Part shown: piece by piece, positions 1-38,225 of the stretch
How positions within the stretch are numbered: position 1 is the stretch's first letter
Layout: each line of letters starts with the position of its first letter
Assembly: GCF_024320785.1 (NCBI RefSeq)
Contig: NZ_JANDBC010000003.1
Location: forward strand, 558,001-622,000
Reading direction: 5' to 3'
Length of the DNA stretch: 64,000 bases
Source of the DNA: Gracilimonas sediminicola
GTDB lineage: Bacteria; Bacteroidota; Rhodothermia; Balneolales; Balneolaceae
Made by a program: the position numbers and the translations under genes
Notes under the pieces: model-generated
The model's database searches: none
What the model was told of the DNA's origin: nothing
Seen by the model: only the letters and a program-made list of their open reading frames with translations

Positions 1-370
1 GGGTATGATTCACCTCTTCAAATAAGATTTTATTGCCATACCAATTCTTGTACAAGTTGCGGCTGATTTTATACTGATTAGCATCTCTTTCGGAAAAGGG
101 TTCCCATACATGAATACCTCCATCAAAACTAACCTGAAAGATGGTTTTACTTCCTGTGGTGTGTGCAAGCTCGGTTAGTTTGTCATCCGTATAGTATGGA
201 AATAGGGCAAAATTTGAATTCTTACGACCTGCTGTTAATCCTCCGTTGCTTGATATAAACATCCAGTGATTTGAATCACTTACGATACTCATAAAGAACG
301 GACGCTGAGAAGCCAGATTTGAAATTTTGAACCAGTTTTCGCCTTGTAATTTTTGAACGGTGATTGACAC
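1..370 (-). CDS. N-terminus of a phosphorylase-like protein (GH94/GH149 type), cut by window edge
   Basis: An open frame runs from a GTG at 370-368 off the left edge, giving 123 codons without a stop. It starts VSITVQKLQGENWFKISN, and no ATG lies between the upstream in-frame stop and this GTG. The segment SSNGGLTAGRKNSN followed by FPYYTDD recalls the N-terminal beta-sandwich of large cellobiose-phosphorylase-like proteins. From memory, the closest fit is the beta-1,3-glucan phosphorylases (GH149) found beside laminarin enzymes. There is no signal peptide, which fits a cytoplasmic enzyme. It lies 48 bp downstream of the GH16 gene on the same strand, so co-transcription is likely. That this is a real gene is well supported; the exact family is inference because the catalytic part lies outside the window. 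Confidence 0.62.
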   Translation of the reverse strand, partial: MSITVQKLQGENWFKISNLASQRPFFMSIVSDSNHWMFISSNGGLTAGRKNSNFALFPYYTDDKLTELAHTTGSKTIFQVSFDGGIHVWEPFSERDANQYKISRNLYKNWYGNKILFEEVNHT

Positions 371-1268: not shown

Positions 1269-3155
1269 TTAATTCTGTGTGAAATTATCGATGTAGAAAG
1301 TGCCTGAAGTTGTACCCGGTGCATCCATAAATAATACAACCCTGCTGTACTCAGCGCTGGATGAAAAATCAAATGAGAGTTCTTCCCAGCCACTACCCGA
1401 ATGGTTGGCCGTAATTTCGATATCCTGTGCACCATTGGCCCCGCCTTCAAACTTCAACAACACCGGAATAGTGGTTGTGGAATACACGTCCATTGTGATG
1501 GTAGATCCGCTGGAAAGATCCACATTGTTTTCGAGATCTACATAGGCTCCTTCAAAAGCAGCTCCGATATTTGTAATACTTCCAACTTTCGAAGCCGAAG
1601 CATTCGATCCAGATAATATCGGGTTATCAATTACCTGAAATGAAGCCCCATTGAATACTTCAAAAGTGTAATCAATAGCAGGATCGTCAAACGTTATAGG
1701 AAATGATGGGGGATTTCTGTCCGGTACTATTATGCCACTATCATAGTAGTAAATATTATCTACAAAGATATTAGAAATGGTCGCATCTGAAACGAAGAAG
1801 AGTAGCCCTATTTCAGAGCGTTCTGTTAGCCCGCTGAAGTTATTCAATGGAATATCCAGGCTAACCCATTCGTTTTGTTGCAGGGTGTTTGAGTCGATAG
1901 TAAATGACCCGGATGTTTCATTGTTGCCCACTGAGTTAATCAACTGAAGGCGTATAAAATCACCTGCATCAATAGCTTCTCTTACATTGATATCTACATG
2001 AAGATGGGTCATTCCGGAGGCATCAATACTTGCAACATCCATGAATGTACCAATACCAACAAAATTTAAATTGGTATAATTAATGATGCCATTTCCATCC
2101 ACAACGATATCAGCCCCACCTTCTCCGGTTCCTCCAAGGGTTGTCTGTCCGTCTCCGTTAAAGAAACCGTTGTAATAATCTACAGGTACGTTGTCATACG
2201 CATCACTGAATATCGAAATTACATCGGCGGGATCTTCATCGGGTACCGGAGCAGGTGTGAAATCACCTATCGACTGTATAGTTAATGAACCGGCAGCTGT
2301 TACTTCATCAAGCGAAGCTGTAATTACTGTAGTTCCCTCTCCTACTACCGAAACCTCGCCATTCCCATCAACTGTTGCTACGCTGGGATCTGACGAATTA
2401 AAGGAAAAATAAGCGGGGGCAGCTGTAACGGTTATATCTTCCCCACTTCCCAAATTAACGGTCTGTGTTAACTCGTTTATTTCCGAACTCAACCCAGTAA
2501 AACTTGTCAACGTATCATTTCTTCCGCTTAATATTGATGGGCGGGGCTGAGCAATGGTGCCCAGGTTTTCGTATTTCAAATCATCAATCCAGAATGAGTA
2601 ACCGTTCCCCTCTTCCGGGCCCTCGGCATACCAGAATAGTCCTTGCTCAGAAGTAAGTTTGGACGCATCAGGTACAGGAATCACATACTTTTTCCAATAA
2701 GTGGTCAGCTTTAAATTATTGAATGAAACCAGGTATTGGTTTTGCATAAAGTCCTGCCCAATACCAAGTTCATTGATAGTTCCCGGGATAGAACCTTTAG
2801 CATAAAAAGTGAGGGCGTTATACGAACTCAGATCTCGGCCTCCATTATCATCTCTGAAAATTGCTCCTGAAAACGCCCCTTCAGAACTTCCCACATTGGG
2901 GATATCCAGGCGCATTGAAGCATCGCTTCCATCATAGGTAACATCACTATCTACGTTGAAGGCATCTAACTTTGAGCCTTCAAACGGATAGTATTCCAAC
3001 CCGGAACTAAAGCCATCTATAAAAACTTCCGGATTTTCTGTGAAATCCGGTTCTTCAAGTCCATCAACAGAACGCTCACACCCTTGAGCAATGGCCATAA
3101 TTAATAAACCGGCCAGTAAAGAACGAATTGTGATTTTTGAATCTAAATCTTTCAT
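1269..3155 (-). CDS. Surface carbohydrate-binding lipoprotein with Ig-like (Big_2) domain
   Basis: A lipoprotein of 628 residues from the ATG at 3155. A GTG nine bases further upstream is also open, but AGGTGA lies six bases before the ATG and overlaps that GTG, so the ATG is preferred. The signal ends in lipobox IAQGC. An N-terminal beta-sandwich (about 40-200) resembles CBM11-like domains, with WKKYVIPVP and FWIDDLKYEN. A Big_2-type Ig domain follows (about 215-300, with SSDPSVATVDGNGEVSVVGEGTTVITA). Two further beta-sandwich modules end in SNIFVDNIYYYD and GTFYIDNFTQN. No catalytic motif is visible. Position between GH16 and a glycan hydrolase suggests a surface glycan-binding protein that holds beta-glucan; this is inferred. 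Confidence 0.85.
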   Translation of the reverse strand: MKDLDSKITIRSLLAGLLIMAIAQGCERSVDGLEEPDFTENPEVFIDGFSSGLEYYPFEGSKLDAFNVDSDVTYDGSDASMRLDIPNVGSSEGAFSGAIFRDDNGGRDLSSYNALTFYAKGSIPGTINELGIGQDFMQNQYLVSFNNLKLTTYWKKYVIPVPDASKLTSEQGLFWYAEGPEEGNGYSFWIDDLKYENLGTIAQPRPSILSGRNDTLTSFTGLSSEINELTQTVNLGSGEDITVTAAPAYFSFNSSDPSVATVDGNGEVSVVGEGTTVITASLDEVTAAGSLTIQSIGDFTPAPVPDEDPADVISIFSDAYDNVPVDYYNGFFNGDGQTTLGGTGEGGADIVVDGNGIINYTNLNFVGIGTFMDVASIDASGMTHLHVDINVREAIDAGDFIRLQLINSVGNNETSGSFTIDSNTLQQNEWVSLDIPLNNFSGLTERSEIGLLFFVSDATISNIFVDNIYYYDSGIIVPDRNPPSFPITFDDPAIDYTFEVFNGASFQVIDNPILSGSNASASKVGSITNIGAAFEGAYVDLENNVDLSSGSTITMDVYSTTTIPVLLKFEGGANGAQDIEITANHSGSGWEELSFDFSSSAEYSRVVLFMDAPGTTSGTFYIDNFTQN

Positions 3156-3171
3156 GTCTCTCACCTGTGTA

Positions 3172-6100
3172 TTAATTCGTTATATCAATTTGGATATAGG
3201 TTCTGAACTCCCACTCTGTACCATTGTCAAAACCGGGAGCTGTTGGATCCGGAACCCGTTCACCGCTCGTGTTAAGCGTGTAAGTAGGGGCATAACGGGG
3301 TGAGTAGTCACTTAATGATCTCCAGGTACCCCGCACTCCAATTCTGGTTGAAGGCAAATCAAACCAATCCGGTTTGCCAAGGTTCATGGACAGGTCGCCC
3401 ATAAGCTGCAGCGGATAGGTCAAGTTAAAGTCACGGTGGTAGTCATAAGGTCCCCAATCATTCACTTTCACAAATGAACTGAACTTAGACTTCTTGTAGA
3501 TCACCCGGACATCTCCGCCATATCGTGTAATGAGCCTTGGGTCGCTGCCATTTGCCTGAGCGTCTCCGCCATATAAATTCGCAATGACACCTAAATTTGT
3601 ATTGAATTTAGATACTATACGGGCATGTACTTCCCATAAATCTCTTGCCGGAGGAGCCCCCGGGAATGGAAAGAATGTACGACCATCTGGTAAAATACCT
3701 ATTGCAGCATCCTGAGTGGTTGGTAAATGCCGGTAAACAAAACCAAGACTCATGGCAAATGGGGCGTCTTCTGCTATATCGTTATTCCAGTCGTACATAT
3801 AGGTACCCGGCGTAGGGTCGAAAGTCAGCAGCAGTTCCCCGGCTATTTGCTCTCTATTAGCACGTACAACAAAAGGATCATCAAGAATATTTCTTGGTCG
3901 GGCGGGTGCTTCAAGATCACCTGGAATCGGTCCTTCAATAGGTTTCTGCCATAAAAAATTAGGCGCAAACTGTATGTTGCCGATATTGTAAGTAAAACCG
4001 GACAGGACATTATACTGATTACCACTGCCGCTGTCTTTCAATCTCCATCCGGTGAAGGTCATTGTTTGATCTGCTCCGCCGTTAGCAACCAGTCCCATGA
4101 TTGACGATTGTGCGTACCAGTTAAAAACACCCTTGGTGTAAGTTACTTTCAACTTACCACCCCAGTTATCTGAAGATTTAATCTCATCCACATATACATT
4201 ATATGAGCCATCATCCTGTTCGCGGGCCAGCTGAAATTCTCTGCCGTTCAGCGGCTGACCTGCCCAAATACCGCCTAACTCTACTCCGAAGTTTCCAAAA
4301 TTCCGTGTTACATAGATAGTTACTCTTCGGGTTTTGGGCTGAGGAATCGCATACGAGCTTCCGGTTAGTCCCTGTCGCTCGATGTCTTCATGATAAATAC
4401 CTGTCAATGAAGTTTGACCGATGCCATAAGTATATTTGAGCAACACTGCGGGGTTTGCTCCCCACCACAATTGCGGACCAAAAGCAAATTTGAGGCCATC
4501 AAATGCTTTCTTCCCTTCGGCTTCAAACCCAAATGGAGCTTCTCCATTGTAAATATCGATCTGCTCCCCATAATTAGCCTCAGGATAAAGCCCAAAGAAA
4601 TCACCTTCATATCCCCAGTGGTAGTGGCCGGTTCGGTAAAAACCATCAATATTGAAATACTCTTGACTCCAGTTGTAGCTGGCGCTATAAATCTGAACCC
4701 GGTTGAGAGACTCTACTGTGATAGCATCATTTCGGGATAATAATTCTACCGGGCGCCCTCTGTTTTCATAAAAAATCTCATCAATAGGATTTTCTGCTAC
4801 ATTCCCGAGGATATTGGTTACTACTTCTGCCCTCATGTTTGGAGCCGGCTTTGCTTCTACCCCTATGAAATATGACTGCATGTGGTCAAAACCTAATTCA
4901 TCTGGATAGGCAGTCCGGGCAGGGTCTTCATCAGTGGGTGTTGTTATCAAAGATCCCCCGGTGTTGTAAGTTTCGAAGGTGGCTGAAAAACGACTCAGGG
5001 AAATGAGTTCCGAACCTCCATCTGACTGATTGCCCCCGGACTTAGCGCGGAGATCAGCTTCAACGATGGAAATATTTGAGAAATGACTTTTCAGGCTTTC
5101 ATATGTAACACCTGCGGCATAAGGATTAAATTGATGAACTTGTTTTAACATGTAATATGCCGTTCTGGGGTAAAGTTCATAAAAACCATTGACATCTGTA
5201 GGCCCTTTTGCCATAATGCCAAACCACTCTTCGTTCATATTGTCCTCACCTTCTGCAAAGTCAAACTGGTAACCTCCATTCGACCATGAGGCATTAACAT
5301 CATGAACGTCCAGGTTCTCAGTTTGGCCAAACTTCCACCAGCCATCACTAAACTGAAAGGTAAATCCCCCAATTGAATTATCTGTGCCGCCCAAACCTGC
5401 AGCATTTTTGTATATCTCTTTCCAGTTGCTGAACAGATACCTCGCCTGGGCTGTTTGAGCTTCTGTAAGGGTTTGGGCATTGAAAGCATCAGAACCAAAC
5501 TCCGTCAACAGTACCGGCTTTCCATATTCATTCCGGACTCTTTCGTACAGGTCGGTAAAAGTCATACCCCGATAAGTATTTGTGCCAAAAATATCTATAT
5601 CGGGAGCCAGTTCATCTATAAGATCAAGAAAAAGTAAATCACCATTTGCAATGGCTATCGGCCTGCTTGTGTCAATTTCTTTCATTGCCAATGCAGCATC
5701 ATTGAATAACTCGTACATCGCACGGGCACGTATCGTCGATTTTCTATTCTCCATTGGAATGTCTTCGGTTTCTGCTCCCCCCCAGAAAAGACCGTAGTTA
5801 TTTTCATTACCTAACAGATAAATCAACAACCCGGGTGTTCCCTTGTATTCTTCCACTAACCGGGTTACTTCACTCAATAGTAGCTCTTGTACTCTTGGGT
5901 CAGAATATTCTGTATTAGCCATCCAGGCACCATCTATTGTTAAACCATACCTTCCAAATGAATGGTTCAACATAGTGTAGATACCATAATTCTCGTATAT
6001 ATAGGTGATCCACTTTTTTGGGATACCCGTGTAAACCCGAATTGCATTAACACCCATATTTTTCAGAAGAGACATCTCATAGTCCAATGCCTGTTCGATA

Positions 6101-6309
6101 AATTCGGGTGATTGATTCCAAAGGCTGTAAGCATAATTGGTGCCTCTTGGAAAGTAATCCCAGTTCATCCCATTTATGATGACAGGCTCACCGTCAACAA
6201 GCAATTGCCACCCCTCGTCAGCTTGCTCAACCACCACCTGGTTTGATTGCGCAATAATTGTGGGTGAGAAATAAAACAAAGTGAAAATTAACAATGCGAT
6301 TCTTTTCAT
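3172..6309 (-). CDS. Clan GH-A glycoside hydrolase fused to a C-terminal outer-membrane beta-barrel
   Basis: A 1045-residue secreted protein with a signal peptide cut near IIA-QS (residue 20). Residues about 30-390 form a clan GH-A TIM barrel: INGMNWDYFPRGTNY near the start, NAIRVYTG, acid/base E169 in LLGNENN, and nucleophile E270 in LLTEFG. This resembles the GH2 catalytic domain or newer beta-1,3-glucanase families; which one cannot be told by eye. From about 430 to the end the protein is an array of amphipathic strands with aromatic girdles and short turns, typical of an outer-membrane barrel of perhaps 14-18 strands. An enzyme tethered to its own barrel is unusual. The gene heads the minus-strand series down to position 1, 16 bp before the binding lipoprotein. 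The upstream 416 bp contain operator-like dyads. Confidence 0.85.
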   Translation of the reverse strand: MKRIALLIFTLFYFSPTIIAQSNQVVVEQADEGWQLLVDGEPVIINGMNWDYFPRGTNYAYSLWNQSPEFIEQALDYEMSLLKNMGVNAIRVYTGIPKKWITYIYENYGIYTMLNHSFGRYGLTIDGAWMANTEYSDPRVQELLLSEVTRLVEEYKGTPGLLIYLLGNENNYGLFWGGAETEDIPMENRKSTIRARAMYELFNDAALAMKEIDTSRPIAIANGDLLFLDLIDELAPDIDIFGTNTYRGMTFTDLYERVRNEYGKPVLLTEFGSDAFNAQTLTEAQTAQARYLFSNWKEIYKNAAGLGGTDNSIGGFTFQFSDGWWKFGQTENLDVHDVNASWSNGGYQFDFAEGEDNMNEEWFGIMAKGPTDVNGFYELYPRTAYYMLKQVHQFNPYAAGVTYESLKSHFSNISIVEADLRAKSGGNQSDGGSELISLSRFSATFETYNTGGSLITTPTDEDPARTAYPDELGFDHMQSYFIGVEAKPAPNMRAEVVTNILGNVAENPIDEIFYENRGRPVELLSRNDAITVESLNRVQIYSASYNWSQEYFNIDGFYRTGHYHWGYEGDFFGLYPEANYGEQIDIYNGEAPFGFEAEGKKAFDGLKFAFGPQLWWGANPAVLLKYTYGIGQTSLTGIYHEDIERQGLTGSSYAIPQPKTRRVTIYVTRNFGNFGVELGGIWAGQPLNGREFQLAREQDDGSYNVYVDEIKSSDNWGGKLKVTYTKGVFNWYAQSSIMGLVANGGADQTMTFTGWRLKDSGSGNQYNVLSGFTYNIGNIQFAPNFLWQKPIEGPIPGDLEAPARPRNILDDPFVVRANREQIAGELLLTFDPTPGTYMYDWNNDIAEDAPFAMSLGFVYRHLPTTQDAAIGILPDGRTFFPFPGAPPARDLWEVHARIVSKFNTNLGVIANLYGGDAQANGSDPRLITRYGGDVRVIYKKSKFSSFVKVNDWGPYDYHRDFNLTYPLQLMGDLSMNLGKPDWFDLPSTRIGVRGTWRSLSDYSPRYAPTYTLNTSGERVPDPTAPGFDNGTEWEFRTYIQIDITN

Positions 6310-6725: not shown

Positions 6726-8477
6726 TTAGTCTATAATCAATTTGGCGATATTAAATCCGCCTTCATCAATTTGGAGTCTTAGAGTATAAGTACCACCTGA
6801 AAACTGATCGGATCCCAGGTTCACTTGTCGCCAGTTTTGATAACCCCCGGTGGCCGGTATGTTTGTTGTATTTCCAACCGGCCGCCCGTCAGAGAATAAC
6901 CGAATTCGCCCTTCTCCGGACGGTGATGCTACAATAACTCTGATATCATACGTGCCTTCTGTTACTTCTACAGTGTATTCCAGCCACTCTCCATCTTCCG
7001 TCCAACCAACGTTATACTCTAATCCTTCGAGAGCTGAAGGCTCAATATCCACTCCATCATTGCGATATACCCAACCTGAGTTCCCCCCTGTTTGATCCGG
7101 GTCCCCATTTACCCTTTTATAATTCATATCATTATAAGCGATCAGGTTATCTCCTATGTCATAGTTTACAGCATCTATGGTTCCGGGTATAGAATGGGAA
7201 GTATATGGGACGTTTTCATTATTAAATGAAGGTGAGAACAAAGCAGCTACTACATCTGGCCTAAAGGTTGTATTCTCGATTTTCAGACCTTCCGCCATAT
7301 CGAATAAACCCTGTTGTGCCTCGTTAGCGGTTGGTTTAGGACCTTCACCCTTCCAATAGGCCAACACTTTTTCGTAGTTTGGGTTAGATGGGGCCGATAG
7401 TGGTGATGTTATCGTTTCAAGTTTTTTATGGGTCCACCAATTCCACCCTATGCCATTTGATTCTACCAGTCTGACAGTTTCGTTGAACCATGGATTAGAA
7501 TTTTCTCCTGACTCACCCAGCCAAAGCGGGGTATCTGTTTGATCTCTTAATCCAAGTAAATAGTTGATGGTACCCTGATCGGTCTCATTCCAGTATTTAT
7601 GAAATGCATATACAATATTGTCGTAATAGGCAGCAAGTATGTCTAACTTATCGAAGGTGGTTGAATAGTAATTACCATTTATAAACAGGATATGGTTTTC
7701 ATCTATTTTTCGAATTTCAGGTATTAAATCCGTATGGAAACGCAGAACATCATCAGCTCCATATCCGGCTGGGGTTACCGGTTCGTTTAATAAATCGTAC
7801 CCGATTATGATGGTTTCATTTTTATATCGGCGGGCAATTTCAGTCCAAATCTTAATGGTTACCGGCATATATGTATCATATTCTGTCCAAAGGCGGGCAA
7901 CTCCATCACTGTCGGCAATCTCTTTACTACTTTGTGCCCCCGGTGCGCCATGCATGTCTAATATTACATCTACTCTATTTCGCTTACACCATATCAATAG
8001 TTGATCCAGACGATCAAACTCTCGCTCATTAAACTCTTCGGTCTCCATATCATAAAACACCTTATGATTAAATGGAACCCGAATATGATCCGCACCCCAC
8101 TCTTTCATCGCAATGATATCTTCTTCTTGAACATAGTTCGTTCTGAATTCTTCGAACCAGCGGTCTGTTTCTGATTCTCCCAACAAATCTGTGATAGCAT
8201 TCCTGAGCTTGGTCGGCCCGAAATCGCCCGGCATATTAAACATATACCCTTCAGGCATCAGCCAACCCCCTAAACCGAAGCCTCTAATTACAACCGGTTC
8301 CCCCTGTCGGTTCAATATCTGAGTTCCGGAAGTGCTGAAAAAAGTGTCATCGGTATAGCCGGGAACATCGGTTGAATTATCGGAATTACTTCCCGTTGGC
8401 GATGAACACGATAAAAATGAAATGAATAGTAATGCTACAAGAGCTTTAAAATTGCTGAACCCGGGTGTTTTCTTCAA
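6726..8477 (-). CDS. GH5 beta-glucanase lipoprotein with C-terminal CBM6-like domain
   Basis: A 583-residue lipoprotein starting at TTG (8477), with GAGAGG about five bases upstream; Cys24 follows FLS. Residues about 50-380 are a GH5 TIM barrel: RGFGLGGWL near the start, HIRVPFNH, DMHGAPG, acid/base E232 in LLNEP and nucleophile E322 in LWLGESGE. The GGWL start recalls exo-beta-1,3-glucanase-like GH5 members. The last 140 residues (GTIDAVNYD, then GWTEDGEWLEYTVEV, then GFNIAKLIID) look like a CBM6-type beta-sandwich, a module often binding beta-1,3-glucan ends. The GH16 gene upstream is 144 bp away on the same strand; a 16-bp palindrome lies between. Subfamily and exact linkage are not determined. 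Confidence 0.9.
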   Translation of the reverse strand: MKKTPGFSNFKALVALLFISFLSCSSPTGSNSDNSTDVPGYTDDTFFSTSGTQILNRQGEPVVIRGFGLGGWLMPEGYMFNMPGDFGPTKLRNAITDLLGESETDRWFEEFRTNYVQEEDIIAMKEWGADHIRVPFNHKVFYDMETEEFNEREFDRLDQLLIWCKRNRVDVILDMHGAPGAQSSKEIADSDGVARLWTEYDTYMPVTIKIWTEIARRYKNETIIIGYDLLNEPVTPAGYGADDVLRFHTDLIPEIRKIDENHILFINGNYYSTTFDKLDILAAYYDNIVYAFHKYWNETDQGTINYLLGLRDQTDTPLWLGESGENSNPWFNETVRLVESNGIGWNWWTHKKLETITSPLSAPSNPNYEKVLAYWKGEGPKPTANEAQQGLFDMAEGLKIENTTFRPDVVAALFSPSFNNENVPYTSHSIPGTIDAVNYDIGDNLIAYNDMNYKRVNGDPDQTGGNSGWVYRNDGVDIEPSALEGLEYNVGWTEDGEWLEYTVEVTEGTYDIRVIVASPSGEGRIRLFSDGRPVGNTTNIPATGGYQNWRQVNLGSDQFSGGTYTLRLQIDEGGFNIAKLIID

Positions 8478-8621: not shown

Positions 8622-9467
8622 CTACTCTACTTCCTGATAAACCCGAACGTAATCAATTACGAATTGCTGAGGAAAGATCGTATCGTCAACGCCCTGAGCT
8701 CCTCCCCAGTTACCGCCGATTGCTGTATTTAGTATGATGTGAAACTCCTTATCGAATGGCCAATATTCCCAACCACGGCCTTCATTTAGATATTCAAAAT
8801 ATTCATGCCCATCTACAGAGATTGTAATTTTATCTTCATCCCACTCCAAAGCATAAACATGAAATTCATTTTCTACTCCACCCACTTGCACGCTTGCACC
8901 GGCTTGAGTTCCCTGAGTGTGGTTTCGTTCGTCTGTATGCACCGTTCCGTGTATCACATTCGGTTCATACCCCACATACTCCATGATATCAATCTCTCCA
9001 TTATCGGGCCAACTGCCGTTTCCATAATTCCATTCTTCAGGAAGCATCCAGAATGCCGGCCATGTTCCTCTTCCTCCCGGAAGTTGTGCTCTCATTTCTA
9101 TTCGCCCATATTTCCATGCATGTTTATCGCGTGTAACCAACCGGGCAGAACGATAGCTTTTACCTGAGGTGCTATTTATCAAAAATGCAGTAATGATTAG
9201 ATTACCATCCTCGACACGAGCTGTCTTAAGATCTTTAGCCGTATATTCCTGTAGCTCATTGTTGCCCCATCCGTGACCGCCTACATCATAGCCCCAATTC
9301 TCGGAATCGGGTAATCCGTCTTTATTAAACTCATCATTCCAAACCAGTTCATAACCCTCAATCTCCGGTATGTCGTTGGCACTGGTAGAATCGTCATTAC
9401 AACCGGAAACGAAGCCGGTAAAAAGTAAACTCAGGGTAGTCGCATAGATTTTAATTAAAGCTGTCAT
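8622..9467 (-). CDS. GH16 endo-beta-1,3-glucanase lipoprotein (second copy)
   Basis: A 281-residue lipoprotein with lipobox FVSGC (Cys23), followed by a single GH16 domain. The catalytic signature GEIDIMEY gives nucleophile E158, D160 and acid/base E163. WGNNELQEYT, TWPAFWML and the C-terminal FVIDYVRVYQE are standard laminarinase features. It is clearly related to the GH16 protein at 419-1243 but differs in loops (for example NYGNGSWPDN before the catalytic strand). The pair probably diverged to cut different lengths or branching patterns; this is inferred. It starts at ATG 9467, facing the GH3 gene across a 595-bp divergent control region. Confidence 0.93.
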   Translation of the reverse strand: MTALIKIYATTLSLLFTGFVSGCNDDSTSANDIPEIEGYELVWNDEFNKDGLPDSENWGYDVGGHGWGNNELQEYTAKDLKTARVEDGNLIITAFLINSTSGKSYRSARLVTRDKHAWKYGRIEMRAQLPGGRGTWPAFWMLPEEWNYGNGSWPDNGEIDIMEYVGYEPNVIHGTVHTDERNHTQGTQAGASVQVGGVENEFHVYALEWDEDKITISVDGHEYFEYLNEGRGWEYWPFDKEFHIILNTAIGGNWGGAQGVDDTIFPQQFVIDYVRVYQEVE

Positions 9468-10062
9468 AACAATAGGTATAATGATTAGAGAGGGCGATCA
9501 AAATTTTACAGAAATGAGGATGAAAAAAGCTTTCTTCTCAACAACTTATTATGGAAGAAACTATCAGCTTCATTACTAAATTAATTTAGTGAATCCTGTC
9601 CTAAAACTGAAACCTGAATTGCCCTAAAATACGTTATTTAACGAACTACTTATTTGATGTAATGACCACCTATTTACATCCTCCCCTGTAATTAAATTTA
9701 TGCCCCCATAATCTCACTCTCAAATTCTTTTCATTCACCTGGAAGAGAAAACATGAGGCAACTTGAGAATATACGTTTGGTAAATTAACCACCAGTAATT
9801 TAATGCTTTTTATTTTATTGTTTTTTATTCTTTTACACGCCTAAAAAATCGCTTATCAATAATATTTTTATAGTCGGAAATGAGGTGGTGAAATTTTTTT
9901 TCACTAAACATTATTCATTGCTGATTCATATAATTATGAGAACCTGAGGGATACATAAATACATAAGGTATTTTATAATTGTAAATTTCAGCGCACACTA
10001 CCTTTTTACATTCATTTTTTTACACATTTTGAAAATCATTAAACATACAATAATTGCTCATT
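9468..10062. promoter_or_regulatory. Divergent control region between GH16 (-) and GH3 (+), 595 bp
   Basis: No supportable ORF lies here. The region is very AT-rich with long A/T tracts. Two perfect palindromes stand out: ACTAAATTAATTTAGT at 9575-9590 and CGTTATTTAACG at 9632-9643. Both are the right size for dimeric repressor sites. Promoters for both neighbouring genes must lie here; I could not fix their core hexamers. Confidence 0.5.
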
Positions 10063-12372
10063 ATGAATAGCCCAATAAATAAATCATTTCTGATTATATG
10101 TTTTTTAACATTGATGCTTACCCCAATTGTTTCCAATGCACAAAATGTGCTCATCAAACCGGAAATAGAAAAACAAATAGATGATCTGCTTTCCAGAATG
10201 ACCCTGGAAGAAAAAGTAGGCCAACTTAATCAGCACAGTGGCTCCTGGGATGTAACCGGGCCCATACCTGAAGATAATGAGTATGTTGCCGAGCGGGCAC
10301 GCTTGCTTAAGAACGGTGGAGTTGGGTCTTTGTTAAATGTAACCGGGGCAGAAGCCACCTATGCTGCACAAAAATTAGCTGTTGAAAACAGCCGATTGGG
10401 GATCCCATTACTGTTTGGCTTTGATGTGATTCATGGCTACAAAACTATTTTCCCAATCCCCCTGGGTGAAGCTGCCAGCTGGGACCTTGATATAATTGAA
10501 AAATCAACCAGAACAGCAGCCATCGAAGCGTCGGCAGCCGGTATTAACTGGACTTTTGCCCCTATGGTAGATATAGGTCGTGATCCCAGATGGGGACGTG
10601 TAATGGAGGGAGCCGGAGAAGACCCTTACCTTGGGTCGCAAGTAGGACTGGCCAGAATGAGAGGTTTTCAAGGCAACGATCTATCTGAAGTAAACACCAT
10701 TCTGGCAACGGCTAAACATTTGGCAGGTTATGGATTTTCTGAGGGTGGCCGTGATTATAATACAGTAGATTTTAGCCGCCGCACCCTGCATAACATTGTG
10801 TTACCCCCTTTTAAAACCTTAGCTGAAAATGGCCTTGCCACAGTAATGAACTCTTTCAACGATTTGAATGGGATTCCTGCAAGCGGAGATCGTTATCTGC
10901 AAACTACACTTTTAAAAGAAAAATGGGGATTCAATGGGTTTATCGTTTCCGATTGGGGATCTATCCGTCAAATGATTAATCACGGATATTCTAAAGATCT
11001 TGAACAATCCGCTTTACATGCCATTACAAGTGGCAACGATATGGACATGGAATCAGAAGCATATCAACGACATTTAGTAGATTTGGTAGAATCAGGTGAA
11101 GTTGATGTTGCGGTATTGGATGAATCGGTTCGCCGTATTCTGCGAACTAAATTTTTGTTGGGGCTATTTGACGACCCATACAAGTATTCTGACCCTGAGA
11201 GAGAGGAAAAATTAGTTTATTCTGACGAGCACAGAACCATTGCCAGAGATGTAGCAAAACGCTCAATTGTTTTACTGAAGAACGAAAAAAACACACTCCC
11301 CCTTTCAAAAGAAATTTCCTCAATAGCTGTAGTCGGTCATTTAGCCGCTGATAAAGATGCCCCTCTTGGAAACTGGAGAGGAAGAGGAGAACCCAATTCT
11401 GCCGTTTCTCTGCTGGAAGGTATAAAAGCAGCTGTTAGTAATAATACAAAAGTGAACTATACGGAAGGTTATACCCTTGCAGCAAATAATGGCTCTTTCG
11501 CTTTTGCTTTAGAATACCCGGAAGATGACGGATCCGGTTTCGAAGCAGCCATAGAAAATGCCAAAAACTCGGATGTAGTCGTAATGGCGGTTGGAGAAGA
11601 GGCCCTGCAATCAGGCGAAGGGCGTAGCTTAGTCGATATCAGCTTGAAGGGACGGCAGCTGGAACTCTTTAAATTGATCCGGGAAGTCAACGAAAACATT
11701 GTGGTGGTATTAATGGCAGGCCGCCCGATGATTGAACCCGAGCTCTATGAAGGGGCATCCACCATTTTGAATACCTGGCATCTTGGAACCGAAGCCGGAA
11801 ACGCTATAGCTGATGTGCTTTTTGGGGATTATAACCCTTCCGGAAAGCTTCCGATGTCGATTCCAAGAGCCATTGGGCAGATTCCTGTGTACTATAATCA
11901 TGTGAGCCCCGGTCGTCCGCAAACCGGCCCAGGTGATGACGGCGCCGTGTTCTGGAGTCACTATAACGATGAAGTAAACAGCCCCCAGTTTGTGTTCGGT
12001 TATGGTTTAAGTTACACTGATTTTGAATATTCCAACTTCGAGCTCAGCAAAAACCTGATGAATATGGATGAAACCATTACGGCACGTGTAGATGTAACCA
12101 ACACTGGCGAAGTACCCGGTGAAGAAGTTGTACAGCTTTATATACGCGACCATTTTGCAAGTTCCATGCGGCCGGTAAAAGAGCTTAAGGGTTTTGAGAA
12201 GGTTATGATCAATGCCGGAGAGACAAAAACCATCACTTTTAAGCTGGATAAGAAAACTTTTGAATTCTATGCAGCAGACGGCACCTGGAAAACGGAACCC
12301 GGTATGTTTAGCATCATGGTTGGAACCAACTCAAATGACGTGCAAACTCTGGAACTTAACATAGAGCGCTAA
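10063..12372 (+). CDS. bglX: GH3 beta-glucosidase (BglX-like), secreted
   Basis: From ATG 10063 the protein has 769 residues; a TTG three codons upstream is also open, but the ATG directly precedes a normal signal peptide ending SNA-QN (about residue 26). Order: GH3 N-terminal TIM barrel, with GFDVIHGY, the substrate-binding KHLAGYG and the nucleophile Asp (D297) in GFIVSDWG; then the alpha/beta sandwich with GEGRSL; then a C-terminal fibronectin-III-like domain ending near VQLYIRD. Length and order match BglX. It removes terminal glucose from beta-linked oligosaccharides, here probably laminari-oligosaccharides, in the periplasm. It is the first gene of a plus-strand pair with the MFS sugar carrier. 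Confidence 0.95.
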   Translation: MNSPINKSFLIICFLTLMLTPIVSNAQNVLIKPEIEKQIDDLLSRMTLEEKVGQLNQHSGSWDVTGPIPEDNEYVAERARLLKNGGVGSLLNVTGAEATYAAQKLAVENSRLGIPLLFGFDVIHGYKTIFPIPLGEAASWDLDIIEKSTRTAAIEASAAGINWTFAPMVDIGRDPRWGRVMEGAGEDPYLGSQVGLARMRGFQGNDLSEVNTILATAKHLAGYGFSEGGRDYNTVDFSRRTLHNIVLPPFKTLAENGLATVMNSFNDLNGIPASGDRYLQTTLLKEKWGFNGFIVSDWGSIRQMINHGYSKDLEQSALHAITSGNDMDMESEAYQRHLVDLVESGEVDVAVLDESVRRILRTKFLLGLFDDPYKYSDPEREEKLVYSDEHRTIARDVAKRSIVLLKNEKNTLPLSKEISSIAVVGHLAADKDAPLGNWRGRGEPNSAVSLLEGIKAAVSNNTKVNYTEGYTLAANNGSFAFALEYPEDDGSGFEAAIENAKNSDVVVMAVGEEALQSGEGRSLVDISLKGRQLELFKLIREVNENIVVVLMAGRPMIEPELYEGASTILNTWHLGTEAGNAIADVLFGDYNPSGKLPMSIPRAIGQIPVYYNHVSPGRPQTGPGDDGAVFWSHYNDEVNSPQFVFGYGLSYTDFEYSNFELSKNLMNMDETITARVDVTNTGEVPGEEVVQLYIRDHFASSMRPVKELKGFEKVMINAGETKTITFKLDKKTFEFYAADGTWKTEPGMFSIMVGTNSNDVQTLELNIER

Positions 12373-12500: not shown

Positions 12501-13850
12501 ATGGCCAATCAGAATAACAACTATCGATCTGCATTTATCATTGTCACTGTTTTATTTTTTATGTGGGGTTTTATCACCGTACTGGTTGATGCTCTCATTC
12601 CGAGACTCCGGGATGTCTTTGAGTTATCCTATTTTGAAGCCGGGCTTGTTCAGTTCTCTTTCTTCACCGCCTATTTTGTTTTCTCAATTCCGGGTGGGGG
12701 ACTTATTTCAAAAATTGGTTACAAAAAAGGGGTAGTTGTTGGGTTAATAACGATGGGAGTTGGATGTTTACTCTTTTACCCTGCAGCCTCATTCCGGGTA
12801 TTTCCAATATTTCTCATGGCTATGTTCGTGTTAGCGGGTGGAATTACCATTTTGCAGGTAGCTGCCAACCCATATGTAGCCGCTTTGGGGCCTGAAGAAA
12901 CATCTTCCAGCCGGCTGAATCTTTCACAGGCTTTTAATTCGCTGGGCACCACCATTGCCCCCCTTGTAAGTGCGGCATTCATCCTGAGCAACACCGTTAT
13001 GAGTTCTGATGAAGTGGCCACCTTAAATGACGCCCAACAGATGGCCTATTATCAGGCTGAGGCAGCAGCAGTTCAGGGGCCTTTTATCATTTTAGCCATT
13101 GTACTTATTGTTTTAGCAGGAGCTTTCGCCTTATTTAACCTTCCCAAAATTCTGGAAGGTGATGACGATAAAAGCGGAAGCTACCGAACGGCTCTTAAGA
13201 TTAAGCACCTGATGTTTGGAGCACTTGGAATCTTCGTATATGTAGGAGCTGAGGTATCCATTGGAAGTTATCTTGTAAACTATTTCTTAGAGCTTGATGT
13301 GGAGGCTCTTGTAGAAGGAAGTGCCGTTATGACTTCAATCGCTTCCACCCTATCAACTATTTTCTCTGATACCAATATTCAGGATATGAATGCTTCTCAA
13401 CTGGCCGGTACCTATGTGTTTTTCTACTGGGGAGGTGCCATGGTTGGACGCTTCCTGGGTTCAGCACTCCTACAGAAACTAAAAGCAGGCAACTTGCTGG
13501 CTTCTTACGCCGGTGTTAATGTTGTGCTACTCTTGATAAGTATGAATACCGGCGGGTTGCTTTCTTTCTGGAGTATTTTGTGCATTGGATTATTCAACTC
13601 CATCATGTTTCCTACTATTTTCACTCTGGCAATTAAGGGAATTAATCAGAATACCGCACAAGGTTCCGGGATACTTTGTACTGCCATTGTGGGCGGGGCA
13701 ATCATTCCTCCGCTATATGGAGCAATGGCAGATAGTTTTGGCCTTAAGATAGCCTTATTGGTACCAGCAGTTTGTTATCTGTACATACTTTGGTACGGGA
13801 AGGTAGGGTCAAAGGTCGAACTTGAAGAAGTGGCTGAAGCTAAAGTTTAA
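12501..13850 (+). CDS. MFS glucose/galactose-type transporter (FHS family, FucP/GluP-like)
   Basis: A 449-residue integral membrane protein with about 12 hydrophobic helices. The N-terminus FFMWGFITVLVDALIPRLRD, the SFFTAYFVFSIPGG segment and LQVAANPYVAALGPEETSSSRL are hallmarks of the fucose/glucose/galactose:H+ symporter family. It should carry a hexose across the inner membrane with protons. Placed 128 bp after the GH3 beta-glucosidase on the same strand, it most likely takes up the glucose that GH3 releases. Length is close to family norm (about 410-450). The start codon ATG is clear, although no strong Shine-Dalgarno is seen. Confidence 0.93.
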   Translation: MANQNNNYRSAFIIVTVLFFMWGFITVLVDALIPRLRDVFELSYFEAGLVQFSFFTAYFVFSIPGGGLISKIGYKKGVVVGLITMGVGCLLFYPAASFRVFPIFLMAMFVLAGGITILQVAANPYVAALGPEETSSSRLNLSQAFNSLGTTIAPLVSAAFILSNTVMSSDEVATLNDAQQMAYYQAEAAAVQGPFIILAIVLIVLAGAFALFNLPKILEGDDDKSGSYRTALKIKHLMFGALGIFVYVGAEVSIGSYLVNYFLELDVEALVEGSAVMTSIASTLSTIFSDTNIQDMNASQLAGTYVFFYWGGAMVGRFLGSALLQKLKAGNLLASYAGVNVVLLLISMNTGGLLSFWSILCIGLFNSIMFPTIFTLAIKGINQNTAQGSGILCTAIVGGAIIPPLYGAMADSFGLKIALLVPAVCYLYILWYGKVGSKVELEEVAEAKV

Positions 13851-16771: not shown

Positions 16772-19700
16772 CTACTTGACGATTGCAAATTTATCAACAT
16801 GCTCGCCGACTCCCTCTGCATATACGTGGTAGAAATAAACCCCGTATGCAATGTCTTCATTATTTGCTGTACGAAGATCCCAGGAAATGGCTCCGTCACT
16901 TATAGAACCATCGTGCACAAGAGTATTGATTAACTCTCCCCGTACATTAAAAATCCTGATTGTACATCGCTGAGGAAGATTGTAGAAGTATATTTTTCTT
17001 TCTCCCCGGCCAACCTGGTCTGAGCTTCGCTCCCAGGAAGCAGCTCCTACATATGGGTTTGGAGCAACATAAATGTCATCCAGCTGACTGGAGGCTAACT
17101 CGTTGTCAACGCCGGACTTTATTACACCAAACTCAAATGAATCCCCAGTTCCAAAAGCACGAGTACTGGAAATTCGGAATTTATCACCGGCTGATGGAGG
17201 TGTGTTCCCCTCAAGAGCATTAAACTGTAAGTTGTAACGGTAGCGGTATTGTCCGCTGGTCTGCAATTCTGCAACAATCAGGTTATCCCCTTCATTGAAC
17301 TCATCATTCTCATCATTATCAATTATGAGAAGAACAGCATCTTTATTTGCCGTTACATTTCTGGCAAAAATGGGGATCTCGGTTCGTAAGAACTGCCCGC
17401 CAAAAAGGAATGGAGGAGTATAAACCGTATCCTGAGGATCGCTCCAGGTTAACTCAAAGTCATCATCACTTAAGAAGAAACCGGTTGTAGATATACCTGT
17501 CGGTGTCAAAATATTTCGGGATATATCCACTTCCCAATCAGTATCCAGTCCATCTAATTCTAATGGATTTAAGCCAAACAACTCATTTTCTGATCCTTCA
17601 TTTGAAACGTATCCCGTTCTATTGTCACGGATTCTGGCGGGTTCGTCATTATCCATTTCAAATGTAAACCCATCAACCACCCGGGTTGATGACGTAAACG
17701 GGCTCTTGGTTATGATGGTATCACCTGATGTAATTTCCACCATATCGTAGCCGGAAGTAATCCCATAATCACCACTGGTTGAAAGGGTATCGTAAAAATT
17801 CACGCGGTATTGATTCGCTGTATTTACCTGGGTCCTGGACAGAACATTAATGTTTGCACTACCTGTTCCGTCACCCGTAGTAAGCTGAGAAAGATCTGTA
17901 GTTGAACCACCGGATACATATCCCAACGGATATGTTTTCGGAACTACTGCAGCTGCATTTATGGATGTGGCTATTACATTACCGGCAAGATCAAGAGAGA
18001 TGTTAAATGTGTTCTCCTGTGGATCAACACCCACTGATTCGGAACCCGCCTCAGGACGAACTCCACGATCGTAAGCAACCAATGCGTAGTAGTAGGTTTT
18101 TCCATTTGTTACGGTTGTATCAACATAATTGAATTGCAATCCTGTATTGTCTCCCAGATCAAAAATGGCTTCTCCTTCCAGAACCGGAATGGTACCACTT
18201 ATGTCGTTATTAAGGTCAAACTGTGCAATTGGATTGTAAAAGGTGGGGGTTCCATTTACATCAGTAATGGATCGTGAATCTGAAAGTAAATTATTGGTAC
18301 CTCGGAATAATTTGTAACCTTCGAAATCAAATTCCTGAATAAACCGATCATAACTTTCCAGGGATGCATCATCCCAGGATAATAGCACCCTTCTGTCTCC
18401 AGCCTCTGCGGTTAATTGTGGAGTGATTGGGGGTTGGGCAAAGTTATAATCTGCATTATAAATATTTTGAACTGTTCTTCTGTTTTTGAAGAAATCCTCT
18501 TCATTGCTTCCAAATATCCATGCTGTGGAAAAGAAATCAGTGGATTTACCATTCAAATCATTTTCACTATCAAGTTGAACCTCACCCGACATAAACAAAG
18601 CAAAAGGCTCATTGTCAGCAACGGTTTGAACCGGTTCTTGTCCCACCGGAAATTTACTCAATACAATACGTTCAAATAGCCAGGTATCATCCCGCAAGTT
18701 ATTTCCACTTTCATAAAACGGACGAGTATTCAAGTCAAAACCGGTCAAACCAATTTGATCAGATTCATCAACATCCAATTCATTAAAGTTAGGTTCGCCA
18801 GGCGTAGGCATACCATCTGCTTCTCCTTCATCGGGGCCCGGATAACCTTGATCAAAAGGTCCTAAACCATCCCGGCCATAGTCATTATTAAGTAATTCTC
18901 CGGAATCATATTCGCCGTTCCCGTTATCATCGCTATAACCAACCCAGTCGAGCTCTTCATCGGAGGTGTACCATACACCGGCCTGGTATGCTGGGCGATC
19001 TTCAAGCGGTCCATAATAGTTTTCAAACAGCGTAATATTATATCGGGCATTCACTTCAGCTTCAATTGCAGCCTGTCCCACAATTGGAGTAAATACGTTA
19101 TTCTCAAATCGGGACTCATCCGTTATACCGTCCTGATCGGCATCCACCATATTATTATCCTCATCGGATGGCGATTCCAGGAATGCAAAACCAGTGTAAC
19201 CCAGGTTGTAATTTCCACCACCCTGAGTTGGTGTACCAATTCCGTTTCTATCCCACCCGTAAACAACATCTAAAAGAGGATCATAAGCGGCATTGTCGTC
19301 ATCCTCTTCGTTTCCAAGACCATAATCTACAATCTGAGTGAAGTATAACCGGTCCTGAGTATAGTCGCCTTTGTTCGTGATTCTGTAAATCAGAAACATA
19401 GTATCTTCGGCAAGAATATTGGCCCACTGGAAGATGCGGACTTGCATTTGCAGCCCTAAACCACCCATGGTAGAATCTGATTCCGGGCTTGGATAATATA
19501 CTCCTAACGGGCTATAGGGTTCTCCTGTTTGTGGATTTACGTGATATTCTTTGTCCGAGAAGTCATCCATCACGTAATAAGATTCCAGATCCGCATTAGC
19601 TAATCGTCCATCCCGTCCATTCCAGGTTCCAGGCCATCCTGCATCCTCTTCATTCAGGCGATCAGGCCAAAATTCAGGCCACGAAGTTTTATCGTCACTT

Positions 19701-20179
19701 AATGCCGGAGTTGGTGTTAGAACGGAAGTTACTGAATCAATTCTATCCGGATTGTTAAAGCCGGGCAAGGGCAACCAAGCCCATGTTTCTCCGGTAAATG
19801 GACTTTGCCGCAACCCTGCTTCCCGATAGTTTATACTAACCGGATTGAGTAGGGTATCTGCCTCGCCGTTATAAAACGCCGGGTAATCTGATCGGTTGCC
19901 GTTAACATATCCGGCAACAATTACACCAACACCATCAATATGGCGCCCTCCTACCCCTCGAGGCCACACTCCCCATGGTAAATCGTTCCACCTGGATAGT
20001 TCCCCGTGATTTCTGAAATTCGTTTCAATCAGGTTACCATCCAATACACCACGTGCAACCGATTCTGTTTCTCCTCGGTATATGACTCCATTGTACTCGT
20101 CGGGTATAACCTGGGCAAATAAACTACCTGAGTAAAAAACCGACCAAACGATCAAGAAAAGGATTTTGCTGTACTTCAT
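16772..20179 (-). CDS. Giant secreted protein with T9SS-type C-terminal sorting domain
   Basis: An 1135-residue protein with a signal peptide ending SLFAQ. The first 560 residues are aromatic, acidic and aspartate-rich and include calcium-loop-like runs (DADQDGITDESRF, DDNGNGEYDSGE, DVDESDQIG), like thrombospondin-3 or EF-hand-like repeats. A fibronectin-III-like module lies around 590-700 (RVLLSWDD, GKTYYYALVAYDRG). The last 95 residues (VAPNPYVGAASWE, RIFNVRGELINTLVHDG, GVYFYHVYAEGV, FAIVK) are a T9SS type A or FlgD-like sorting domain. No enzyme motif is visible. The TonB receptor is 38 bp upstream and the PorV-like barrel 38 bp downstream, so a surface-protein export set is likely. Function is unknown. 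Confidence 0.8.
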   Translation of the reverse strand: MKYSKILFLIVWSVFYSGSLFAQVIPDEYNGVIYRGETESVARGVLDGNLIETNFRNHGELSRWNDLPWGVWPRGVGGRHIDGVGVIVAGYVNGNRSDYPAFYNGEADTLLNPVSINYREAGLRQSPFTGETWAWLPLPGFNNPDRIDSVTSVLTPTPALSDDKTSWPEFWPDRLNEEDAGWPGTWNGRDGRLANADLESYYVMDDFSDKEYHVNPQTGEPYSPLGVYYPSPESDSTMGGLGLQMQVRIFQWANILAEDTMFLIYRITNKGDYTQDRLYFTQIVDYGLGNEEDDDNAAYDPLLDVVYGWDRNGIGTPTQGGGNYNLGYTGFAFLESPSDEDNNMVDADQDGITDESRFENNVFTPIVGQAAIEAEVNARYNITLFENYYGPLEDRPAYQAGVWYTSDEELDWVGYSDDNGNGEYDSGELLNNDYGRDGLGPFDQGYPGPDEGEADGMPTPGEPNFNELDVDESDQIGLTGFDLNTRPFYESGNNLRDDTWLFERIVLSKFPVGQEPVQTVADNEPFALFMSGEVQLDSENDLNGKSTDFFSTAWIFGSNEEDFFKNRRTVQNIYNADYNFAQPPITPQLTAEAGDRRVLLSWDDASLESYDRFIQEFDFEGYKLFRGTNNLLSDSRSITDVNGTPTFYNPIAQFDLNNDISGTIPVLEGEAIFDLGDNTGLQFNYVDTTVTNGKTYYYALVAYDRGVRPEAGSESVGVDPQENTFNISLDLAGNVIATSINAAAVVPKTYPLGYVSGGSTTDLSQLTTGDGTGSANINVLSRTQVNTANQYRVNFYDTLSTSGDYGITSGYDMVEITSGDTIITKSPFTSSTRVVDGFTFEMDNDEPARIRDNRTGYVSNEGSENELFGLNPLELDGLDTDWEVDISRNILTPTGISTTGFFLSDDDFELTWSDPQDTVYTPPFLFGGQFLRTEIPIFARNVTANKDAVLLIIDNDENDEFNEGDNLIVAELQTSGQYRYRYNLQFNALEGNTPPSAGDKFRISSTRAFGTGDSFEFGVIKSGVDNELASSQLDDIYVAPNPYVGAASWERSSDQVGRGERKIYFYNLPQRCTIRIFNVRGELINTLVHDGSISDGAISWDLRTANNEDIAYGVYFYHVYAEGVGEHVDKFAIVK

Positions 20180-28648: not shown

Positions 28649-28772
28649 ATGATGAGTAAAATGTTCAGAATGGTCCTATTCAAAGAATTACAACCCGGTA
28701 AAGTGTAATCAGCAAAATTGGAGACCCTCCTTTTCTCATTTTTTTGATGAATACCGAGTCATGTGTTTCAAC

Positions 28773-37600: not shown

Positions 37601-38136
37601 TTGAGTTTCTTGAAGTCGGGCCTGGCAACAGAAATGGGATCGAAATCACATTCCTCCAGCATAAAGTTGATCATACCCTGCAGCCCCATTTTACTGCCAT
37701 CTTCAACAGAAAAAATGCGGGTTACGCCGGCTTCATGAAGTTCTTCGATTTCATCCCCAACAATAACTCCGCCGCCACCGCCAAATACTTTGATGTGTCC
37801 GGCTCCGTGCTCTTCAAGCAGTTCAATCATATACTTGAAGTACTCTACATGTCCGCCCTGGTACGAGCTGATGGCAATACCCTGGGCATCTTCCTGAATA
37901 GCACAATTCACAATTTCATGCACTGAGCGATTGTGCCCGAGGTGAATGACTTCAGCCCCGCTGCTTTGCAAAATTCTGCGCATGATATTGATACTGGCAT
38001 CATGGCCGTCAAACAAACTGGCAGCCGTCACAAAACGAATTTTATGCTCAGCCTGGTACGGCTCTTGCACGTGGTTATTCTTATCTGATTTTGCTGCAGC
38101 TTTCTTAGCTGGTGATGTTTTCGTTTTTACCGACAT
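34663..38136 (-). CDS. icmF: Fused isobutyryl-CoA mutase IcmF (B12 domain, G-protein chaperone, mutase)
   Basis: From ATG 38136 the protein has 1157 residues; an 11-codon upstream extension is open but less likely. Order: B12-binding domain (about 30-165) with [23 protein letters not shown] and VFGGGGGVI; MeaB/ArgK-type GTPase (about 210-440) with P-loop [12 protein letters not shown] at 227-238; methylmalonyl-CoA-mutase-type TIM barrel (about 560-1150) with [36 protein letters not shown]. This order is specific to IcmF. The enzyme interconverts isobutyryl-CoA and n-butyryl-CoA (some members act on pivalyl-CoA) with coenzyme B12 and GTP-dependent cofactor loading. It serves branched-chain acyl-CoA metabolism. 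No other pathway gene is adjacent. Confidence 0.95.
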
Positions 38137-38225
38137 AATCTTTTTTCTTGATAGTGGAAGCGGTCCCATAAGATATGGATTTGAACAGGAAGTATTAAAT
38201 ACCTTAACGGAATATTATATCTTGC

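Follow-up and report, generated by a model that had tools for sequence, protein, structure and literature searches.

We found that a single gene of Gracilimonas sediminicola (Bacteroidota; Balneolaceae) encodes a glycoside hydrolase (GH) domain fused to a predicted outer-membrane beta-barrel, and we propose, at a probability of about 0.58, that this protein serves a SusCD-independent locus for beta-1,3-glucan of the laminarin type as its uptake channel in the outer membrane, with a glucanase at the periplasmic mouth that would cut the glucan as it enters. The gene lies at positions 3172 to 6309 on the minus strand of the window, by which we mean the whole stretch of 64,000 nucleotides analysed (contig NZ_JANDBC010000003.1, positions 558,001 to 622,000). 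This reading is drawn from the GH158 enzyme that is the best match of the enzyme half in the Protein Data Bank (PDB), the outer-membrane folds matched by the barrel half, the conserved lumen and loops, the parity of strands and loops, the beta-1,3-glucan genes of the locus, a constant lipoprotein partner, the rarity of SusD and the absence of an enzyme-free whole barrel among the matches found. The fusion itself and its conservation, the catalytic residues, both predicted folds and the make-up of the locus were computed directly and are well supported. The parts of the gene are as follows.

3172..6309, minus strand: fusion of a GH158-like domain and an outer-membrane barrel, an open reading frame (ORF) of 1045 amino acids with intact homologues elsewhere
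6250..6309, minus strand: Sec-type signal peptide, residues 1-20, recognised by eye; the model has a hydrophobic helix at residues 2-19
5035..6246, minus strand: clan GH-A domain nearest GH158, residues 22-425, from profile, Foldseek, VIA and Pfam comparisons
5803..5805, minus strand: codon of E169, the predicted acid/base, preceded by N168; invariant, after strand beta-4 of the model
5500..5502, minus strand: codon of E270, the predicted nucleophile; invariant, at the end of strand beta-7 of the model
3175..5034, minus strand: predicted outer-membrane beta-barrel of about 24 strands, residues 426-1045, from the model, fold matches, amphipathicity and loop alternation

The reading frame is on the minus strand, the plus strand of the same interval containing 39 stops. 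A preliminary description of this DNA had assigned to the gene a clan GH-A domain with E169 and E270 as its glutamates, and both residues, together with N168, proved to be invariant in 67 aligned full-length sequences (the window and 66 homologues) and in 28 enzyme domains, two of them stand-alone. In the model of the whole fusion (predicted local distance difference test score, pLDDT, 77.2; predicted template modelling score, pTM, 0.60), a (beta/alpha)8 domain follows the signal peptide, and E169 after beta-4 and E270 at the end of beta-7 occupy the clan GH-A positions, the Asn-Glu pair after beta-4 and the Glu after beta-7 being those expected of GH158. N168-E169 and E270 would be equivalent to N136-E137 and E220 of the Bacteroides uniformis enzyme BuGH158, in which, according to passages of the published study, alanine at N136, E137 or E220 abolishes activity (PMC7157763). 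When a profile of the 28 enzyme domains was compared with the PDB, BuGH158 (6pal) ranked first (E 1.8e-7) and GH158(Pro) (9oro) second (E 5.2e-4), with GH2 enzymes following from E 0.017, and the TEFG motif containing E270 was aligned with TEWG of BuGH158. A Foldseek search with the whole model likewise placed 6pal in the first row (8.2e-14) and GH157 in the second. Because the profile favours 6pal but three families tie by fold in the VIA comparison (GH157, Z 27.7; a GH2 enzyme, 27.2; GH158 chains, 25.7-27.0), the enzyme half is best called GH158-like, not GH158.

The only Pfam family above its cut-off in the fusion was PF02836, the triosephosphate isomerase (TIM) barrel domain of GH2 (33.4 bits, cut-off 21, E 3.4e-8). 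We nevertheless rejected GH2 membership, since the sandwich domains were unmatched and GH158 was nearer by profile; in GH2 enzymes the TIM barrel is preceded by a jelly-roll and sandwich domains, whereas here it starts soon after the signal peptide. Scans with NCBIfam and PHROGs gave nothing useful for the fusion, the PHROGs match being noise. We regard the enzyme half as a predicted beta-1,3-glucanase, with beta-glucan of algae or fungi as its probable substrate.

The C-terminal half had been described earlier as about 600 residues of amphipathic strands forming an outer-membrane barrel, and both parts of that description were borne out. For the last 610 or so residues the mean strand dyad difference was 2.32, compared with 1.42 +/- 0.22 in within-strand shuffles, none of 2000 of which reached the observed value. 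In comparisons of the barrel-alone model (pLDDT 80.5, pTM 0.77) with the PDB, all 50 rows listed by Foldseek and all 50 listed by VIA were outer-membrane proteins; a soluble propeller or beta-helix was unsupported by the fold searches. The Foldseek matches included the TonB receptors BtuB, PfeA and Cir (E to 2.8e-9), the top VIA match was AlgE (Z 14.2, 289 residues, 5.6 Å), and the pilus ushers PapC and FimD aligned over barrel residues 5-620 (about 360 residues, Z 12-14), with OprD-type porins, the Mtr complex, Wzi and chitoporin among the other listed matches. Assignment by DSSP gave 24 long strands, a count that omits short strands and the hairpin 266-284, and the 23 connections between them alternate long and short with unbroken parity: 12 are long (median 28, range 7-36 residues) and 11 are short (median 2, with exceptions of 21 and 12), a difference significant by the Mann-Whitney test (p = 1.3e-4). 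Recounting at 22 or 26 strands changed the pairs but kept the parity (p = 1.9e-4 each). On the predicted model, the half has the amphipathic antiparallel strands, short turns, long outer loops and fold matches of an outer-membrane beta-barrel.

A Pfam scan of the 67 barrel sequences gave no fitting family, only five chance matches in one member each, and the plug and TonB-receptor barrel families PF07715, PF00593 and PF13715 were unmatched in the fusion or in any of the 67; NCBIfam TIGR01786 (TonB receptor) matched four of the 67 marginally (best E 0.013). We therefore rejected SusC or another TonB-dependent transporter, to which plug and receptor-barrel families belong, as the identity of the barrel. 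Sequence and profile searches of the PDB with the barrel gave nothing meaningful and no relation to AlgE, OprD/Occ, chitoporin or the ushers, and a viral fold library yielded five uninformative rows at E <= 0.001, with a porin and a SusC-like receptor at the top.

In known outer-membrane barrels, the short turns are on the periplasmic side, so the unbroken parity of strands and loops in the model would place both termini, and hence the N-terminal enzyme, in the periplasm. The preliminary description had instead pictured a surface enzyme feeding cut sugar into the pore from outside, and the parity goes against this. On this view the enzyme would sit on the cell surface, having passed through the barrel or being displayed by it, and would cut glucan there, with the barrel as anchor or pore. 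Autotransporters, whose N-terminal passengers lie outside a C-terminal barrel of 12 strands, offer a precedent, but the present barrel is about twice that size, no autotransporter family was matched by Pfam, which led us to reject a type V autotransporter, and the alternation of short and long connections puts both ends inside. Although the GH158 enzyme of B. uniformis is itself presented as a predicted surface enzyme in the passages concerned (PMC7157763), we consider such an exposed arrangement unlikely. Positions on the lumen side of the barrel were more conserved than those on the lipid side (0.83 versus 0.71, p = 5e-9), a contrast that the assignment of strand faces by hydrophobicity may favour, and the long outer loops were conserved at 0.79. 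Conservation of both lumen and outer loops is what would be expected of a pore that meets a ligand or partner, rather than of an anchor.

The fusion is not confined to one genome. A pattern scan of a species-genome collection gave at least 575 confirmed relatives, the best 80 of which are referred to here as the named loci. An intact ORF of at least 1030 amino acids was present in 78 of these, at 62-83% identity; of the other two, L083 was cut at a contig end and L100 was in two ORFs. In the latter, from Lewinellaceae bacterium SD302 (L100:9977-13117), the fusion gene is split into ORFs of 326 and 687 amino acids, by a frameshift or a sequencing error. The alignment used above comprised the window and 66 of the 78 intact loci, with eight omitted for long called N-terminal extensions and four as near-duplicates. 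The named loci are labelled as Balneolaceae, Flavobacterium, Chryseobacterium, Saprospiraceae, Chitinophagaceae, Bacteroidales and others, including one metagenome-assembled genome labelled KSB1 and one labelled Thermoanaerobaculia, and cultured carriers include several strains of Flavobacterium, Chryseobacterium, Halpernia and Algoriphagus.

In samples of genomes, matches were found in 30 of 57 near relatives and 37 of 296 members of the phylum, a number of them being weak or restricted to the enzyme half; with the enzyme half as query, 50 of 128 genomes of the window's order, taken to be Balneolales, matched, some weakly, and a second class gave matches in 14 of 295, 13 of them full length. 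A barrel-only query matched 30 of the 296 genomes at 31 places, 28 of which were in open frames of at least 1028 amino acids and three of which were fragments (barrel residues 1-214, 523-620 and 1-64), so that no whole barrel without an enzyme was found among the 31. The enzyme without the barrel does exist, in 20 stretches, 19 from the window's order and one (L146) from another order of the same class; a further stand-alone enzyme, in genome G436, has a stop inside. The fused arrangement is kept across many Bacteroidota species. A tree made by a quick method, with Shimodaira-Hasegawa-like approximate likelihood ratio support only, requires six changes between the fused and stand-alone states (seven if the outgroup is treated as a separate, third state), at least four of them forced by supported branches. 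As the outgroup is distant (branches 5 to 10) and two stand-alone rows are basal, we assign no ancestral state.

The genes next to the fusion in the window are those of beta-1,3-glucan breakdown, and include the following.

1269..3164, minus strand: lipoprotein resembling a carbohydrate-binding module (CBM) protein, the constant partner downstream, 7 nucleotides past the fusion stop codon
419..1243, minus strand: GH16, a lipoprotein by eye, likely a surface endo-glucanase (PF00722, E 3.9e-25)
2..370, minus strand: start of a GH149 beta-1,3-oligoglucan phosphorylase (1136 amino acids), cut by the window end; the full gene is L111:11960-15370
6726..8477, minus strand: GH5 with CBM6/35, a lipoprotein by eye; found by Pfam, with PDB matches including exo-beta-1,3-glucanases
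8622..9467, minus strand: second GH16, a lipoprotein by eye (PF00722, E 4e-21)
10054..12372, plus strand: GH3 beta-glucosidase (Pfam; NCBIfam BglX, 758 bits)
12501..13850, plus strand: transporter of the major facilitator superfamily (MFS), glucose/galactose type (TIGR01272, 327 bits)

The partner lipoprotein was the next gene in all 77 named loci that have one, at a median gap of 12 nucleotides, compared with 7 in the window. To compare fused and stand-alone forms we used 26 fused stretches of the window's order, which overlap with the named loci, and the 20 stand-alone stretches: the lipoprotein was present in 25 of 26 and 0 of 20, respectively (p = 4e-12), the remaining fused stretch ending at the fusion. 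Its last module, residues 488-603, matches PDB 8qx6 ('PKD domain-containing protein') with E 2.8e-24; modules related to 8qx6 presumably bind laminarin, an assumption for which our literature search found no paper. A lipobox-like motif was seen in 59 of 79 copies, 55 of which have at least two acidic residues within the eight positions after the cysteine, a pattern that resembles surface-export signals of Bacteroidota. RNA folding of the 41-nucleotide stretch spanning the junction between the two genes revealed nothing. GH16 was the second gene downstream in 71 of 74 named loci and GH149, which matches 6hq6 by phmmer (E 0, 1479 bits) and lacks a signal peptide by eye, was the third in 51 of 73. 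The likely surface enzymes of the locus are the separate GH16 and GH5 lipoproteins. To the left of the window, the same contig carries the GH149 gene, GH17, GH30, a 789-residue MFS-GH17 fusion, two more GH17 genes and a LuxR-type regulator. The 789-residue protein (L111:6769-9138, positions 549769-552138 of the same contig) is an MFS_2 transporter with a C-terminal GH17 domain, and is an inner-membrane counterpart of the fusion.

These neighbours also bear on the possibility that the fusion trims and exports an exopolysaccharide made by the cell itself, as do the pairs of hydrolase and porin for poly-N-acetylglucosamine (PNAG), Pel and alginate. AlgE heads the VIA list, and in the PNAG and Pel systems a periplasmic hydrolase is known near the export porin. 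The genes around the fusion, however, are catabolic (GH149 without a signal peptide by eye, sugar transporters, GH17, GH30 and GH3), and no synthase was found among the locus genes scanned, which comprise hydrolases, phosphorylase, transporters, binding protein and regulator. We therefore rejected synthase-dependent export, for which an inner-membrane glycan synthase would be expected among these proteins, and regard an exporting role in general as very improbable.

The usual import pair is missing from the fusion locus. A search with two SusD families found no SusD on the window's contig, and SusD-like genes at two places on other contigs; a SusC/SusD pair, the mark of a SusCD locus, is absent from the locus. 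The absence of SusD claimed in the preliminary description therefore stands, but the surroundings are not free of TonB transporters, as one is encoded at 20218-22962. In the three stand-alone loci with SusD (L114, L143 and L145), SusD directly precedes GH16, the stand-alone enzyme and GH149, where other loci carry the fusion, lipoprotein, GH16 and GH149; SusC accompanies it in two, and the third is at a contig end. In genome G044 (L142), SusC, SusD, GH16 and GH149 are about 12 kb from the stand-alone enzyme, but G044 was left out of the SusD test below because its locus alone had been extended. Among the 80 named loci, whose flanks were scanned up to 10 kb and less at contig ends, one (L045) has a SusD, an 86-residue end of the protein at the contig edge (L045:2-259), about 10 kb upstream of the fusion. 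The region directly upstream of this fused copy (L045:2-8301) holds, besides the SusD end, an MFS transporter (L045:485-2041, a sugar transporter by Pfam), a 313-residue GH-A lipoprotein related to the enzyme half of the fusion, and a GH149-type gene; L045 perhaps has two uptake arrangements side by side.

Several results weigh against an uptake channel that takes the place of SusCD. The SusD contrast is weak, with 0 of 26 fused and 3 of 20 stand-alone stretches (Fisher p = 0.075), and 17 of the 20 stand-alone stretches, several of them on short contigs, have no SusD either. TonB receptors occur in two of the 26 fused stretches, compared with five of 20 stand-alone ones, and in one of the 80 named loci (L048, found by phmmer with four TonB receptors), which is probably the same record as one of those two fused loci; the flank scans covered 99 of the 105 proteins outside the main clusters that reach 430 amino acids, of which 20 large ones were read singly (one TonB receptor, that of L048). 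In the window itself, the receptor at 20218-22962 is 14 kb from the fusion. As for the barrel, its TM-scores by query length were low (0.23-0.38), so that the resemblance to the listed proteins is one of fold class, not family; both models were built from 67 sequences of 61-85% identity, with pLDDT of 77 and 80; the closure of the barrel and the size of its pore are presumed; and the hydrophobicity-based assignment of faces, noted above, belongs here also. The nearby TonB receptor and the constant lipoprotein would suit a closed or plugged barrel that keeps a periplasmic enzyme, together with the lipoprotein, close to a separate TonB receptor responsible for transport. A TonB receptor accompanies only one of the 80 named loci within the flanks scanned, though, the lumen residues are strongly conserved, and an anchor needs fewer strands; we judge a scaffold of this sort to be somewhat less probable even than the exposed enzyme.

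We therefore prefer the uptake channel, a putative pore whose glucanase would lie on its inner side; this describes the mechanism better than an enzyme feeding it from outside. Surface GH16 lipoproteins would cut the polysaccharide and the partner lipoprotein would bind it; fragments would cross through the barrel; the GH158-like glucanase at the periplasmic mouth would cut each emerging chain, thereby preventing it from slipping back; and breakdown would be completed by GH17 and GH30 in the periplasm, MFS-GH17 in the inner membrane and GH149 in the cytosol. In this scheme we infer the topology, the open channel, the substrate and the enzymatic activity, as well as the ratchet and the compartment given for each enzyme. 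A stronger version, which we hold only tentatively and think doubtful as a whole, is an importer driven by its enzyme: the channel of about 24 strands would be open and guarded at the periplasmic mouth by its own glucanase, hydrolysis of each emerging chain rather than TonB energy would make uptake one-way and the lipoprotein would act as a lid, the whole replacing SusCD and representing a new class of outer-membrane transport across Bacteroidota.

Literature searches on the fusion, its families and its locus found no enzyme-barrel fusion of this kind, in agreement with the preliminary description, which knew of no such system. AlgE, the OprD/Occ porins, chitoporin and the pilus ushers share the fold class of the barrel, without a sequence relation found by profile, and we know of no glycosidase fusion to any of them. 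The nearest described locus is that for beta-1,3-glucan in B. uniformis (SusC/SusD, the surface glycan-binding protein SGBP-B, GH16, GH158 and GH3), which in the published passages also has a GH158-type domain, GH16, a second glycan-binding protein and GH3 (PMC7157763); in that locus the GH158 enzyme is encoded separately, carries an Ig-like domain and is accompanied by SusCD, whereas here barrel and GH158-like domain form one chain and SusCD is absent. Laminarin loci of Formosa and Muricauda, as far as the passages on them go, have largely the same enzyme set as here (GH16, GH149, GH17, GH30, MFS and MFS-GH17), but those of Formosa carry SusD and TonB receptors. SusCD-type laminarin loci are described elsewhere (PMC6298971, in part), and GH149 genes are stated, in a passage of PMC5827456, to occur in clusters with and without susCD. 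Passages on laminarin loci also name a 'GH2' gene (PMC13188888, PMC11345257); such genes, including that of Muricauda, may encode this fusion protein; the passages on the Muricauda loci mention no barrel. In the part of PMC12016534 that concerns it, the Cytophaga hutchinsonii cluster CHU_1276-1280 similarly lacks SusCD and has a barrel-type outer-membrane protein, an SGBP-B-like binding protein and an endoglucanase, but barrel and enzyme are separate genes and the substrate is cellulose, whereas here the two are fused. The MFS-GH17 protein of marine Flavobacteriia, presented in a passage of PMC6246565 as a transporter-enzyme fusion not previously described, is alike in joining enzyme and transporter of the same pathway in one chain, but belongs to the inner membrane, whereas the present fusion is predicted to be in the outer membrane.

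Some further genes of the window were observed in passing. A 1135-residue protein at 16772-20179, secreted by eye and without a Pfam match at E 0.01, adjoins the TonB receptor and a PorV gene (PF19572), and this block of three recurs in a sister species (L113 and L139); the protein might replace SusD beside that receptor. Two tandem paralogues of about 590 amino acids at 26885-30545 share a GGSSTQG motif and resemble SGNH hydrolases by eye. The 1168-residue protein at 34663-38169 is a fusion of a B12-binding domain, the MeaB GTPase and methylmalonyl-CoA mutase, an order of domains that we take to be the IcmF-type arrangement.

SusCD pairs are the usual sign by which glycan uptake is recognised in Bacteroidota, and laminarin represents a very large flow of carbon in the sea. 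A conserved locus that seemingly swaps SusCD for an enzyme-barrel protein and a binding lipoprotein would escape locus finders based on SusCD, and domain finders would label the fusion 'GH2'. Its conservation lifts the interest of the fusion beyond that of a single gene, and because cultured species among the named loci carry it, the family is accessible to experiment. With the fusion one could ask cleanly whether uptake can be driven by hydrolysis at the mouth of a pore, and the conserved arrangement suggests that these bacteria may take up sugar without the usual import pair.

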